Assembly (NCBI GenBank): GCA_903826205.1
Contig: CAIKDP010000033.1
Span: 1-38,758, forward strand
Length of the DNA: 38,758 nt
Reading direction: 5' to 3'
Source: Akkermansiaceae bacterium
GTDB lineage: Bacteria; Verrucomicrobiota; Verrucomicrobiia; Verrucomicrobiales; Akkermansiaceae
In this document: positions 14,915-35,567 of the stretch, piece after piece
Layout of the letters: the number at the start of each line of letters is the position of its first letter
Numbering within the stretch: the first letter of the stretch is position 1
Position numbers and translations under genes: made by a program
Notes under the pieces: generated by a model
Told to the model about the DNA's origin: nothing
Seen by the model: only the letters and a program-made list of their open reading frames with translations
Database searches by the model: none

Positions 14915-17452
14915 CTATTTGAGTTCCTTCAAGCGTTGGCGGCACCAAGTGACACCTTCTTCATATTCCTCGCTCACGGGACGGGTTTTGAGCAGCTTCT
15001 CCCACGCCGCCAGCGCATCGCCAAAGGCCGCCTTGGCATCCGGCTTTTTATCCACCAACTGCAGGCCATGCCCGAGGTCACCGAGCAGATAGGCCAACGA
15101 GCGCTGGATCTGCTCGAGCGGCGGTCCCGCGGGCTGGCGATCGTTTTCGAGTTTGCTCAACAGCGCGCGCGCCCGGAGGGTCAGCGAAATCTCGTCGTCG
15201 CGCTTGCCCTCGCCCCCTAACATCCTGGCCTTTTGCCACCACAACAACGCCAGACGGTAGTTTGCGCCCGCATCATTCGGCGCCGAGGCGAGCACGCCCT
15301 CCAACATCCGGATGGCCTCGTCGAAGGCTTTCATGGCCTCGGCGGTCTGGCCGCGATCCCGCATCAAGCCGGCGCTCAGGCCCAATTGGGCGGCCATCCG
15401 TGCCACGGTCTCACTGTTATCGGGTTGCTCGCGCAGCAGTTTTTCTAACAATTTCATCGCCTCCTTGGAAAGCGACTCCGCCGCCATGGTGTCCGCGGCT
15501 AACAACGCGGCATCGGCCATCGCGCCATAACAACCGGCCAGCTCCAGCCGCAACGCGAAGTCCGCAGGCGACTGCTTCAGCAAGCGCTTCAACTCCGCCA
15601 TGGCCAGCGTGCGCACCTCGCGTGCATCGCCGAGTGTGCCGAGCCCTTCGAGAATTGTGGCGGAGGCCAAGTAACAAGCGGCGAGCTCCGAACGCAACAC
15701 CACCGCGTCCGGACGTTGGTCCGCCAAGCGGTTCAAGCTTTGGGTGGCCCGCATCAATTGCTCCGACGCCTTGGCGCCGTCACCTTGTGCCGCCAGCAAA
15801 TTGGCTTCATGGAAATCAAGGATGGCCGACAATTCACATACGCGATCGGCATTTGCCGCCGTGGGTGGCACCTCGGCCAAGGCCTTGCGCGCCGCTGCAA
15901 ACGCCGGGGCCGTTTCCGGGGCCGCGGCCGTCTGCCGCAACAAGGCCAGCACCAAGCGATTGGTGGCCAAGCGCATGCGCCACTCCGCATCCATCGGCTG
16001 CCCGTCCCACGCTTGCAAGGCCTCGCCAAGTCGTTGCATTGCCACCTCCGTCTGGCCTTGGGCCAGTGAGACTTCGGCCAATTCCATGCGCACCCGCAGC
16101 CGCTCCTCGTGCAACGCCTGGCTGTCTGCCGTGCCTGCCAAAAAATCCTGGAAATAGCGCTCGAGCCGCTGCAAGCGCAGCTCGCGTCCATCGAGCGGCG
16201 GCAGCAAGCGGTGGCCCTTCTCCATGGCCCAGGCAAACAACTGGTCGCCCATCAACCGTGATGCCTGCAAGCGGGCCAGCATCACCTCCCGCTCGGACTC
16301 CAGCAGACGCGTCGCCTCGGCGGCGCGGGTTTCCGCCACCTCGCGCGCCTGCACGGCGGTGTCAGTCCGGCTCTGCAACTCGCGCGTTTCTGTCTGCCGT
16401 TGGAGCATTTCCCGCCGCAAGCGGGACGCCGATAATTGCCACAAACCAGCCAGCACGACTGCGGCGACCACCGCCAGAACGGCCGCCAGTGAGGTTCGCC
16501 ATGCGCGCCGGTCCGCGCGTCGCCGCTGATCCAGCAAGTGTTCGCGTTCATCTTCGAGGACCACGTGTTCCTCCACTCCATCCAGGCCAGCAACCACTTC
16601 GAGCATCGTCGCCGGTCGCTGCAACGGGTCCAACGCGAGGCAATGGACAATCCAATCCCGGAACCCGGCTTCCAGTGTGTTGCCCGCCTCAGCGGGCCAC
16701 TCCACATGGGGCTCCGCGTAGAGATTGTGCGCCATGAGCGCCAAGTCCGCCTCTGCCACCTCGGTCCGCGTCTCCCCGGGAACCGGTGCCAGCGTCGCAA
16801 AAGATTCATGGCAGCGGGGAAAATGCCCGGTCAATAGGCGGTAGGCCAGTACCCCGAAGGCGTAGACATCCCACTGATACCCCTTGCCCTCGGCATAGCC
16901 GGTTGCCTCCAAAAGTTGTTCGGGTGGCTGATAGAGCAGCGCATCCGTAAAGTCAAAGCGCCCCACGCCCGGCATGTTGCCCAGCGTCCAATCCGCCAGC
17001 AAAATGCCACCCGCTTCATCGAAAAACACGTTGCCCGGCTTGAGATTTCCATGGGCCACACGCCGCAGGTGCATCGCTGCCAGCGCGCGCGCCAGCGCCC
17101 TTACCAACGGCCATGAATCCCTGCCCGGATGGTCGTGCAGGCGATGTTGCAAGGTCCTTGGCAACAGGCCCAGCTCCACGTCAGGATCGCCGTCCGCCAG
17201 CCAAGGCGTCACCCGCAGGGCGGGCCGGCTTTCCAAGTCGGAAAAAACCACGGGCATCACGCCCTCCGGCCAACCGCCCACCGCCAAGCGCCCGGTCATC
17301 TTTGCCAGCAGGCCACGCTGGATCGCCATGCCATCAAACACCTTGAGCGCAAACAACCCCCCGTTGTCGTCTTCCGCGAGATAAACACCTCCGCACCCGC
17401 CCGCGCCAAACAGGCGTCGAACTTTCAAGCCTTCCACGCGCGGCGCTTCCAT
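14915..17452 (-). CDS. Kinase-like (pseudokinase) membrane protein with C-terminal TPR-type repeats
   Basis: The 845-residue protein starts at the ATG at 17452; the frame stays open 600 bp further, but that part is antisense to the acyltransferase gene and looks non-coding. Residues 10-290 have a Ser/Thr protein kinase fold: glycine loop FGAGGCGGVYLA (15-26), Lys37 in FALKVF, HGNLKPGNV at 134-142, ADWTLGN at 153-159 in place of DFG, and YQWDVYAFGVLAYRLLTG. The catalytic Asp of HRD is Asn136, so phosphotransfer is doubtful; metal-binding Asp154 is kept. A membrane helix at about 321-341 is followed by a coiled coil (345-400) and a long helical region with TPR-like repeats (430-845). It is probably a signalling or scaffold protein with the TPRs outside the cytoplasm. 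Confidence 0.88.
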   Translation of the reverse strand: MEAPRVEGLKVRRLFGAGGCGGVYLAEDDNGGLFALKVFDGMAIQRGLLAKMTGRLAVGGWPEGVMPVVFSDLESRPALRVTPWLADGDPDVELGLLPRTLQHRLHDHPGRDSWPLVRALARALAAMHLRRVAHGNLKPGNVFFDEAGGILLADWTLGNMPGVGRFDFTDALLYQPPEQLLEATGYAEGKGYQWDVYAFGVLAYRLLTGHFPRCHESFATLAPVPGETRTEVAEADLALMAHNLYAEPHVEWPAEAGNTLEAGFRDWIVHCLALDPLQRPATMLEVVAGLDGVEEHVVLEDEREHLLDQRRRADRRAWRTSLAAVLAVVAAVVLAGLWQLSASRLRREMLQRQTETRELQSRTDTAVQAREVAETRAAEATRLLESEREVMLARLQASRLMGDQLFAWAMEKGHRLLPPLDGRELRLQRLERYFQDFLAGTADSQALHEERLRVRMELAEVSLAQGQTEVAMQRLGEALQAWDGQPMDAEWRMRLATNRLVLALLRQTAAAPETAPAFAAARKALAEVPPTAANADRVCELSAILDFHEANLLAAQGDGAKASEQLMRATQSLNRLADQRPDAVVLRSELAACYLASATILEGLGTLGDAREVRTLAMAELKRLLKQSPADFALRLELAGCYGAMADAALLAADTMAAESLSKEAMKLLEKLLREQPDNSETVARMAAQLGLSAGLMRDRGQTAEAMKAFDEAIRMLEGVLASAPNDAGANYRLALLWWQKARMLGGEGKRDDEISLTLRARALLSKLENDRQPAGPPLEQIQRSLAYLLGDLGHGLQLVDKKPDAKAAFGDALAAWEKLLKTRPVSEEYEEGVTWCRQRLKELK

Positions 17453-17589
17453 CTGCACACACTCTAATCGTTTTTCAGCTCCAGCCAACCCCGAAAATCG
17501 GCAAAATCCGCTTGCTGATGACGCTCGGCGCCTTCGGCCCGCCCTTCCGCAACAAAGCCGCCGCCGGCCTTCCAGCGTACGGTATGGGA

Positions 17590-17618
17590 TTGACAAGCGA
17601 ATTGACCCCGCACTAAGA
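17590..17618 (+). promoter_or_regulatory. Possible sigma70-type promoter for the acyltransferase gene
   Basis: A perfect -35 hexamer TTGACA (17590-17595) is followed after 17 bp by the poor -10 CTAAGA (17613-17618). If used, transcription would begin very close to the GTG start at 17628, giving a leaderless or nearly leaderless message. The poor -10 makes this uncertain. Confidence 0.3.
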
Positions 17619-32666: not shown

Positions 32667-35567
32667 ATGCGCCTTTTCCTCCTTGATGGCATGGCCCTGA
32701 TTTACCGGGCTCACTTTGCGTTCATCCAAGCCCCGATCCGCAATTCCAAGGGCGTCAACACCTCGGCGCTTTACGGTTTCATCAACACCCTGCTGGCCAT
32801 CCTCGAAAAGGAACAACCCACCCATATCGGGGTGGCCTTTGATACCGCCGCACCCACGCCGCGCCATCTCAAGTTCCCCGCCTACAAAGCCCAGCGTGCT
32901 GAAATGCCCGAGGAACTGGCCGCCGCCATTCCGCATGTCAAGGCGCTCTGCCGGGCCTTTCACATCCCGGTGCTGGAAGTTGATGGCTTTGAGGCCGATG
33001 ACATCATTGGCACCCTCGTCAAGCGTGCGGAAGCCGCGGGGTTTGAGTCGTTCATGGTCACCCCGGACAAGGACTTTGCCCAACTTATTTCCACCCAAAC
33101 CTCGATGTGGAAACCTGGTCGCAAAGGCTCCGACCACGAAATCATCGACCTGCCCACCATGCTCAAAAATTGGGATATCGAGCGACCCGGGCAAGTCATC
33201 GATATTCTCGGCCTGTGGGGCGACGCCTCGGACAACATCCCAGGCATCCCCGGCATCGGCGAAAAGACCGCCAAAAAACTCATCGCGGAATTCGGCTCGA
33301 TGGAAAACCTCATCGCCCATGCCGCCAGCCTCAAGGGCAAACAACGCGAAAACATCGAAGCCTATGCCGATCAGGCCCTGCTCTCGAAAGAACTCGCCAC
33401 CATCATCACCGACGTTCCCATCCATGTCACCTGGGAGGATCTGGTGCTTTCCGCGCGCGATGACGACGCCCTCAAAACCCTTTTCAACGAATTTGAATTC
33501 CGCACCCTGACCAAACGGCTGTTTGGGGAGAGCGGCGGCGGGGCGTGGGGTGCCGGTCTTGCGGGGAACGCCAACATGCCGGGGGGTACCGGCATCCTGC
33601 CGGCTGCTTCCGGCGTCTCGCCGGAAGCTTCCTCCGCCATAGCGCAGCCATCTGCCGCCACACAACCGACGTTGCTCGAATCCTTCCGCAGCGTCCGCGA
33701 CACCGCCCACACCTATCACCTCGCCGACACCCCGCAACTCCAACAGCAACTTCTAACAAAACTACGGGCCCAGGCCAGCTACTGCTTTGACATTGAAACC
33801 ACCGGGCTCGACCGTTTTGCTGCCAGGCTGCTGGGGATTGCCTTCGCCTGGCAGGCCCATGAAGCGTGGTACCTTCCCATCGCGGATTTCAAATCCCAAA
33901 TGCCGGATCTCCAGGCCCTGTTTGCCGGGCCTGCGGAAAAAACCGGCCATAACCTCAAATACGACCTGTCCATCCTGCATCATCACGGCATCGACGTCGC
34001 CGGGCCGTTCTTTGACACCATGCTGGCCGATGCCCTGGTGTTTCCCGAGCGCCGCCACTCGATGGACTATCTCTCGGAAGTTTTGCTAGGTTATACGCCG
34101 GTCAAGTTTGCCGAGGTGGCGGCTGCGGCCAAGGGGCCGTCCCAGCCGCCCTCCGCGGTGGACGATCTGTTTGAGTTTGCCGCGGCCCAACAAGCATCCA
34201 CCGACATCGATGTCGCCGCCATCCCGTTAGAGAAACTCGCGGAATACGCCGCGGAGGACGCCGACGTCACCTGGCAGCTCGCGCAAAAGCTCCGCCCGCT
34301 GCTTACCGCATCCGGCCAGGACCTGGTGATGCAAGACATCGAAGGCCCGCTGCTGCCGGTGCTGGTGCGCATGGAGATGGAAGGCATCGCCATCGATACC
34401 GGCTCACTCAAATTCATCGGCGATGAGTTGCAAATCCAGATTGACGGGCTTGCCGCTTCGATCCAACAACATGCCGGCACGCCCTTCAACATCGCTTCGC
34501 CCAAACAACTCGGGCAGATTCTCTTCGATCACCTCAACCTCGACGGGAAAGCCAAGAAGACCAAGACCGGCCAATACAAGACCGACGAGCAGACGCTGGC
34601 CACCTTTGAAGGCAAGCACCCGATCATCAGCGATATCCTTGCCTGGCGCGAAGCCACCAAACTCAAGTCCACCTATCTTGACGCACTGCCCACCCACATC
34701 GTTGCGGAAACCGGCCGCATCCACACTCACTTCCACCAACTGGTGGCGGCCACCGGTCGTCTCGCCTCCTCCGATCCCAACCTCCAGAATATTCCGGTGC
34801 GCTCTGAGGCCGGTCGCAAAATCCGCAAGGCCTTCGTACCTCGTGATGCGCTGATTCCAAATTTGCAATATCAGCTTCTTTCCTGTGATTACTCGCAGAT
34901 TGAATTGCGGGTGATGGCTGCGCTGGCGCAGGACGCCGGCATGATCGCCGCTTTCGAGAATGGTGAGGACATTCACACCGCCACTGCGGCCAAGGTCTTC
35001 CGCGTGCCCCCGGCGGACGTCACCACCGCCATGCGCCGCTCCGCCAAGATGGTCAATTTCGGTATCATCTACGGCATCTCCGCCTTCGGCCTGTCCCAGC
35101 GCCTGGCCATTCCGCGCACCGAGGCCGCCGCCATCATCGAGGCGTATTTCCGCGAGTATCCCGCCATCCGCCAATTCATGGACCGCACCATCGCCCGGGC
35201 CCGCGAGGCAGGTTATGTGACTACTCTAACGGGCCGGCGGCGGTCGTTCCCGGATCTGATGTCTTCCAACCAAAACCTCCGCAGCAACGCCGAGCGCGCC
35301 GCCATCAACACCCCGATCCAAGGCACCGCTGCCGACATGATCAAACTCGCGATGATCCGCATCGACGCTTTGCTACGAGAAAACTCGTACCAAACCCGGA
35401 TGCTGTTGCAGGTGCATGACGAACTGGTGTTTGATCTGGCGCTGCACGAGCAGGAGGAACTTGTCCCGCAAATCCTGCATGCCATGAAGAGCGCCCTGCC
35501 GCTGCCACATCACGTGCCTATCGAAGTGGAACACGGCATCGGCCCGAACTGGCTCGCGGCGCATTGA
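32667..35567 (+). CDS. polA: DNA polymerase I
   Basis: The 966-residue enzyme fills gaps and removes RNA primers. All three domains look intact. The 5'-3' exonuclease (1-285) has MALIYRAHFAF, DGFEADDIIGTL and the HhH GIPGIGEKTAKKL. The 3'-5' exonuclease keeps Asp375 and Glu377 in FDIETTGLD plus GHNLKYDLSIL and YAAEDADVTW, so proofreading is expected. The polymerase domain has motif A with Asp741 in SCDYSQIELR, motif B RRSAKMVNFGIIYG and motif C QVHDELVF (915-922). The linker at about residues 292-322 is encoded by a hairpin-rich palindromic sequence, probably an in-frame repeat insertion. The stop is 6 bp from the convergent ilvH stop. Confidence 0.97.
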   Translation: MRLFLLDGMALIYRAHFAFIQAPIRNSKGVNTSALYGFINTLLAILEKEQPTHIGVAFDTAAPTPRHLKFPAYKAQRAEMPEELAAAIPHVKALCRAFHIPVLEVDGFEADDIIGTLVKRAEAAGFESFMVTPDKDFAQLISTQTSMWKPGRKGSDHEIIDLPTMLKNWDIERPGQVIDILGLWGDASDNIPGIPGIGEKTAKKLIAEFGSMENLIAHAASLKGKQRENIEAYADQALLSKELATIITDVPIHVTWEDLVLSARDDDALKTLFNEFEFRTLTKRLFGESGGGAWGAGLAGNANMPGGTGILPAASGVSPEASSAIAQPSAATQPTLLESFRSVRDTAHTYHLADTPQLQQQLLTKLRAQASYCFDIETTGLDRFAARLLGIAFAWQAHEAWYLPIADFKSQMPDLQALFAGPAEKTGHNLKYDLSILHHHGIDVAGPFFDTMLADALVFPERRHSMDYLSEVLLGYTPVKFAEVAAAAKGPSQPPSAVDDLFEFAAAQQASTDIDVAAIPLEKLAEYAAEDADVTWQLAQKLRPLLTASGQDLVMQDIEGPLLPVLVRMEMEGIAIDTGSLKFIGDELQIQIDGLAASIQQHAGTPFNIASPKQLGQILFDHLNLDGKAKKTKTGQYKTDEQTLATFEGKHPIISDILAWREATKLKSTYLDALPTHIVAETGRIHTHFHQLVAATGRLASSDPNLQNIPVRSEAGRKIRKAFVPRDALIPNLQYQLLSCDYSQIELRVMAALAQDAGMIAAFENGEDIHTATAAKVFRVPPADVTTAMRRSAKMVNFGIIYGISAFGLSQRLAIPRTEAAAIIEAYFREYPAIRQFMDRTIARAREAGYVTTLTGRRRSFPDLMSSNQNLRSNAERAAINTPIQGTAADMIKLAMIRIDALLRENSYQTRMLLQVHDELVFDLALHEQEELVPQILHAMKSALPLPHHVPIEVEHGIGPNWLAAH
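33540..33632 (+). repeat. Palindromic hairpin-rich insert within polA
   Basis: Nested perfect hairpins occur within about 90 bases: ATGCCGG...CCGGCAT (33576-33595, 6-base loop), an alternative CCGGCA-TCC-TGCCGG (33589-33603), and GCTTCCGGCG-TCT-CGCCGGAAGC (33606-33628, 10-bp stem). The element is read in frame as a Gly/Ala/Pro/Ser-rich linker between the two exonuclease domains. The form fits a REP-like or palindromic mobile repeat inserted without breaking the gene. Its boundaries are estimates. Confidence 0.65.

Follow-up and report, generated by a model that had tools for sequence, protein, structure and literature searches.

REPINs consist of two inverted REPs forming one unit. The parts of Di Nocera et al. 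2013 (PMC3733652) drawn on here describe intragenic REPs in many species, with targets that include DNA polymerase I, uvrA and tRNA synthetases, so that protein-embedded repeats are not the rarity outside Rickettsiales that the original prediction for this locus supposed. In those parts, the verrucomicrobium Opitutus terrae has the most intragenic GTAG REPs and both of its uvrA genes are doubly hit, and there is speculation on a role of REP-tagged repair enzymes, possibly in mutator states. The same source gives CGTC as the end of RPEs and links no transposase genes to CGTC repeats. Its TIRtrons and TIRYTs were linked to TnpA-Y1 subclass 2.1 in PMC6006769, which, in the portions used here, discarded unexpectedly long proteins (as gene fusions or annotation errors) and calls the long vertical persistence of RAYTs an open question.

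In this study, we analyzed a palindromic insert in the polA gene of an Akkermansiaceae bacterium (assembly GCA_903826205.1), located in a window which is the whole 38,758-nucleotide stretch of contig CAIKDP010000033.1 (Table 1). The insert, which is read as (G)SAGILPADSG-like residues, lies between the C-terminal domain of the 5'-3' exonuclease (residues 173–265) and the 3'-5' exonuclease domain (residues 351–546), as delimited by Pfam. This linker is predicted to be disordered, with residues 289–334 all having pLDDT values below 50 in the AlphaFold2 model of PolA and the flanking domains mostly above 85; residues 493–511 are also partly of low pLDDT. The predicted 10-bp stem with a 3-base loop at 33606–33628 and the two mutually exclusive stems around 33576–33603 are present. 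The accompanying statement that such structure is absent elsewhere in polA was too broad, as 18 inverted repeats were listed across the gene, although the only perfect 10-bp stem with a short loop is indeed that of the linker.

Table 1. Features of polA and of the insert in its linker (positions are those of the window).
Feature	Position	Strand	Basis
polA, encoding DNA polymerase I (966 aa); carries the insert	32667..35567	+	ORF; Pfam domains
Disordered inter-domain linker with insert, codons 289-334	33531..33668	+	AlphaFold2 pLDDT < 50 (predicted)
Degenerate head copy GCGGGGAACGCCAACATG	33561..33578	+	Sequence; presumed equivalent to the head
Alternative stem 33576-33582/33589-33595 (7 bp, loop 6), excludes hairpin 1	33576..33595	+	
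R1 element core, 47 bp, two hairpins	33581..33627	+	Covariance model R1, 57.5 bits, E 5.8e-11
Hairpin 1, CCGGCA-TCC-TGCCGG (6 bp, loop TCC; arms 33589-33594/33598-33603)	33589..33603	+	Inverted repeats
Hairpin 2, GCTTCCGGCG-TCT-CGCCGGAAGC, perfect 10-bp stem, 3-base loop	33606..33628	+	Inverted repeats
Tail CTTCCTCC, like CTCTTCC after many other R1 copies	33628..33635	+	Flank comparison

A BLAST comparison of the linker DNA (33500–33680) with the host genome returned matches on contigs C61 (78%, E 1.7e-6), C114 (E 7.1e-5) and C335 (E 0.003). These belong to a repeat family, here termed R1, whose layout is a head GGGGAGCG, hairpin 1 (CCGGCA-TCC-TGCCGG), CTG and hairpin 2 (about 9 bp around TCC), often followed by CTCTTCC; the hairpin loops are TCC or TCT. 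A covariance model trained on nine other copies, with the polA copy left out of training, identified 47 places in the 5.57 Mb host genome at E<=10, of which 30, polA among them, have E<1e-4. As had been predicted, the linker is therefore translated from one copy of a palindromic, REP-like family, but the part clearly in the family is 47–55 bp (33581–33635) rather than the full 93 bp. Six of the 30 places are in verified genes (one in polA, two in uvrA and three in alaS) and the remaining 24 are without a verified host gene, these counts being based on ten proteins examined and not on every spanning frame. No domains were detected by Pfam on both sides of the R1 copy in seven host spanning frames (L124, L126, L127, L131, L135, L144 and L148). 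The search of the whole genome for further members of the hairpin family thus returned copies that lie mostly outside verified genes and are, like REPs, dispersed short palindromes. The uvrA copies are in a fused UvrA-type protein of 1978 aa (C61:10893-16826, L162), which has a third, weak R1 match besides the two clear ones.

Pairing was analyzed in 26 of the 30 copies, the four irregular ones (C448, C246, C61:11636 and C439:16951) having been dropped; both-sided changes occur in nine of 16 pairs, and no pair is formed in fewer than 22 of the 26 copies. Clear inverted R1 pairs are found on C7, C335 and C9, with gaps of 49, 88 and 98 bp, as well as two with a weak partner on C331 and C114, and many copies, including that in polA, are single. 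R1 has inverted pairs as REPINs do, but every R1 end comprises two hairpins on its own, and the polA copy is a single end. The intragenic REPs in the parts of PMC3733652 used here are, like R1, short palindromes read in frame as 20–30 residues, but they are GTAG- or CGTC-tagged, whereas R1 has a GGGGAGCG head: among nine aligned copies, GTAG is absent from the consensus, which begins GGGGAGCG, and CGTC is not at the ends, being found only within the hairpins of some copies. RPEs are likewise palindromes inserted in frame in proteins with open frames; however, according to PMC3733652 they have CGTC ends and no transposase link, and the suggested likeness to the Rickettsia elements did not extend to membership, because the ends of R1 are of another kind and a RAYT is associated with it. 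We also rejected R1 as a known RNA gene, as searches of four R1 loci against Rfam gave no match above the gathering score and one sub-threshold match (Bacillaceae-1, 25.2 bits versus 35). The polA insert represents a new repeat family, intragenic REPs having been described before in genes such as those of DNA polymerase I and UvrA.

Just upstream of the polA core, the sequence resembles degenerate copies of the GGGGAGCG head, and at the equivalent place in the polA gene of genome G035 there are three 18-bp units of the head in tandem, GCGGGGAGCGCCGCCACT. In-frame tandem head copies (GGGGAGCG, 15 or 18 bp) were observed just upstream of the element within alaS of the host (G000), G035 and G018 and within polA of G035 (L159, L238, L271 and L208). 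A single codon phase is common to 14 of the 15 same-strand R1 copies in verified genes at E<1e-5, the exception being in G009; these copies are in polA (five genomes), uvrA (two), alaS and recG and represent about six independent sites, as orthologous sites are not independent. With weak matches added, 15 of 19 share the phase, those that differ being the third uvrA copy (E 0.0067), two leuS copies and that of G009. The G028 polA copy has the shared phase. No stop interrupts any of the six frames in 22 of 26 R1 copies, compared with 477 of 2000 composition shuffles.

A polA locus was available for 29 relatives, and its linker could be read in 24, three of these being poorly delimited. The linker is 29–45 aa long in 19 of the 24, some with other palindromes, and R1 was found in two (G035 and G018), and also in G028. 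Among the four named relatives scanned (L041, L042, L048 and L066), R1 matches are present in the polA linkers of L041 (E 2.3e-6), a Lake Pavin Verrucomicrobia MAG which is the closest named PolA relative in the scan (84%), and of L066 (E 5.5e-8). The R1 linker sequence is therefore absent in most relatives read rather than universally conserved, which agrees with the prediction of an acquired insert. R1 itself is patchy, present in 23 of 59 genomes including the host with 0–70 copies under stricter filters, and it was not found in the polA linkers of the R1-rich genomes G009 (39 copies) and G025 (21 copies). The linkers of G024 and G029 contain a different palindrome, AGCGCGGAATTTATTCCGC and AGCGCGGAATTCATTCCGC, with 21 and 12 genomic copies, respectively; it is absent from G000, G018 and G028, and a reversed control pattern gave no matches in any genome. 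This second dispersed palindrome family of relatives, with the pattern AGCGCGGANTTNNNTCCGC, has one copy in each of the two linkers, and four genomes rich in it (G017, 23 copies; G019, 27; G013, 15; G008, 14) have no intact copy listed in polA. The palindromes in other relatives' polA linkers have a common GGGAGCG head and the same reading phase. The linker is thus a tolerant site that different repeat families have occupied, either by repeated insertion or through conversion of a single old insert. The relatives belong to different species and are represented by assemblies or MAGs; among them, no close strain with an empty site was found that would reveal an insertion.

The association of R1 with a transposase is most evident in alaS. 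The host genome has 17 Y1_Tnp matches, 16 of them above the Pfam cut-off, and three are contained in the frames of alaS (1260 aa), metH (1296 aa) and ispG (970 aa). On contig C439, the Y1_Tnp match at 17148–17432 lies between R1 copies at 17555–17601 and 16862–16908, so that R1 flanks the alaS RAYT (P0002, L159) as inverted ends, an arrangement of RAYT gene and flanking repeat that is characteristic of REPs. Because this R1-RAYT-R1 cassette is integrated in frame, AlaRS and RAYT form one open frame, with both alaS halves (model positions 2–374 and 378–845) in it, and would be translated as a fusion. No second alaS was detected at E<=0.001 beyond these two halves in the 97.7% complete assembly. 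Frames of RAYT size (1160–1263 aa) with an insert at the same place in alaS were found in ten genomes, with G035 and G009 cut by contig ends, and many relatives have an alaS of about 950 aa with no insert. In G018, two R1 ends occupy the same site with no RAYT between them, and no RAYT of the P0002 clade was found in that genome (46 R1 copies), the best match being 40%. The G009 RAYT is split over two frames (394–609 and 609–860 of C76), indicating a break in the alaS frame or an assembly error. Nine smaller inserts occur at the alaS site; in eight (L272–L279) R1 was not found and the inserts look unrelated, and the site therefore accepts unrelated sequence too. Genome G005 has two alaS genes, one uninterrupted (C28) and one with a RAYT (C161), in an assembly that is possibly contaminated.

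Inverted R1 copies bracket seven of the eight RAYT loci that are at least 55% identical to P0002 (L159 of the host, L238, L239, L240, L242, L294 and L295), the eighth (L296) having R1 on one side only, and none of the ten alaS RAYTs at 45–52% identity, of which L297 has one side; the 55% cut was chosen after the identities were seen, and the scanned loci are those returned by searches. Weak R1 matches flank some leuS and ispG RAYTs. The seven bracketed loci each have a RAYT-like gene between long inverted repeats, as do the TIRtrons and TIRYTs in the parts of PMC3733652 cited here. Of the eight letters of GGGGWSAS, which the same parts give for some TIRs, GGGGAGCG fits seven. Two points set the R1-RAYT unit apart from TIRtrons: it is open throughout and fused in frame within alaS, and the repeats at its ends come from a dispersed family with two hairpins. 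The embedded RAYTs of nine genomes form two groups (G000/G035 and seven others) that are 44–53% identical to each other. Between G000 and G035, dN/dS was 0.14 for the RAYT and 0.17 for the C-terminal part of its alaS. Within groups (22 pairs with RAYT identity of at least 70%, 18 of them measurable, many with dS also above 1), RAYT values were 0.067–0.167, and those of the alaS host over the same 22 pairs were 0.106–0.225. Between groups, dN/dS was 0.20–0.51 with dS near or above 1 and therefore saturated. The alaS-embedded RAYTs are under purifying selection.

P0002 relatives at E<=1e-15 were found in 47 of 288 genomes of the phylum, and 29 of the 66 matches fall in open frames that span 700 aa or more. 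Twenty embedded-RAYT candidates (the host alaS, then ten and then nine further loci) were examined with Pfam, and 17 have host-enzyme domains on both sides; for L240, L294 and the host alaS (at the 1e-5 cut) Y1_Tnp was not reported by Pfam and the RAYT call is from a protein match. The three without are L263, L303 and L297, the last truncated at the end of its locus. A long frame is not proof of embedding, because L303 has no host domain and L263 has a downstream NUDIX domain only. The RAYT hosts are alaS, leuS, metH, ispG, carB, recG and a HsdR-like protein. Individual cases include two in the host genome, with a RAYT in frame in the activation domain of metH (C360:7500-14500, L160; 1296-aa frame) and another in ispG (C294:25000-31500, L161; 970-aa frame), and L302, where a type I restriction R-like protein has a RAYT between its HSDR_N and SWI2_SNF2 domains. 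Like an intein, the RAYT is a guest domain in frame within conserved enzymes, but we rejected an intein, since no Hint splicing domain was among the Pfam hits. RAYT embedding in a host enzyme was not met in the parts of PMC3733652 drawn on, and our search of the open-licence literature, with subscription journals thinly covered, returned no report of RAYTs inside housekeeping enzymes.

Based on these sequence comparisons, we consider it probable that the polA insert is a single non-autonomous REP-like R1 copy that was moved by such a RAYT. R1-type elements exist singly, as inverted pairs and as inverted ends of a RAYT (Y1, HUH-type) cassette, and the RAYT would recognize single-stranded R1 hairpins and move R1 copies in trans. 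Coding insertions would survive where they comprise a whole number of codons, have no stop and fall in a tolerant loop. R1 would have entered polA in a readable frame and may persist, presumably with neutral effect on PolA, because it is within a disordered linker between two exonuclease domains. Alternatively, processes that need no RAYT, such as replication slippage, recombination or gene conversion between copies, may have spread or maintained R1. The RAYT would then be a mere passenger between two copies, and the differing linker palindromes would be a single old insert that each genome converted with its own repeat family. The G024 and G029 linkers do hold their own genomes' palindrome, and the GGGAGCG head and same phase of other linker palindromes are as expected of an old, repeatedly converted insert. 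However, the pairing of R1 with one RAYT clade (seven of eight loci versus none of ten) extends across the phylum and the inverted R1 arrangement is conserved, making spread without a RAYT unlikely.

It is less likely still that the insert is functional in the host rather than merely tolerated, with selection acting on the PolA linker, on a hairpin in the DNA or on a pause signal in the mRNA. Such a role would fit the recurrence of repair and replication genes as hosts (polA, and the fused uvrA with its three copies) and the pairing of hairpin 2, kept despite two-sided change between G000 and G035/G018, but linker length and content vary freely among the relatives read, the linker is predicted to be disordered and its RNA (121 nt) folds no better than shuffles (z = -1.22, with 25 of 200 shuffles folding equally well). 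That fold value, together with the occurrence of at least one 10-bp stem (loop 3–8) in 15 of 300 synonymous-codon shuffles of polA, means that the polA hairpins by themselves are only mildly unusual, as would be so for a low-complexity Gly/Ala/Pro expansion in a GC-rich gene with chance hairpins. What far exceeds chance is membership in a dispersed repeat family (E 5.8e-11, from a model built without polA). A chance origin is refuted by this match, though the hairpin alone is weak evidence, and we regard such an expansion as very improbable.

With movement of R1 by a RAYT as the preferred reading of the polA insert, we give about even chances to a wider proposal, in which the RAYT-REP elements of Verrucomicrobiota are in-frame guests in essential enzymes. 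The RAYT would be translated as a domain of AlaRS, LeuRS, MetH, IspG, CarB or RecG and held under purifying selection since loss of the frame would kill the host enzyme, and it would spread R1 ends, readable in six frames, into polA and uvrA, much as inteins live but with no splicing. The repeat, the transposase presumed to move it and the genes that carry them can be linked in one system, and in-frame fusion of a transposase with an essential gene that seems to be single-copy would account for the long vertical persistence of RAYTs.
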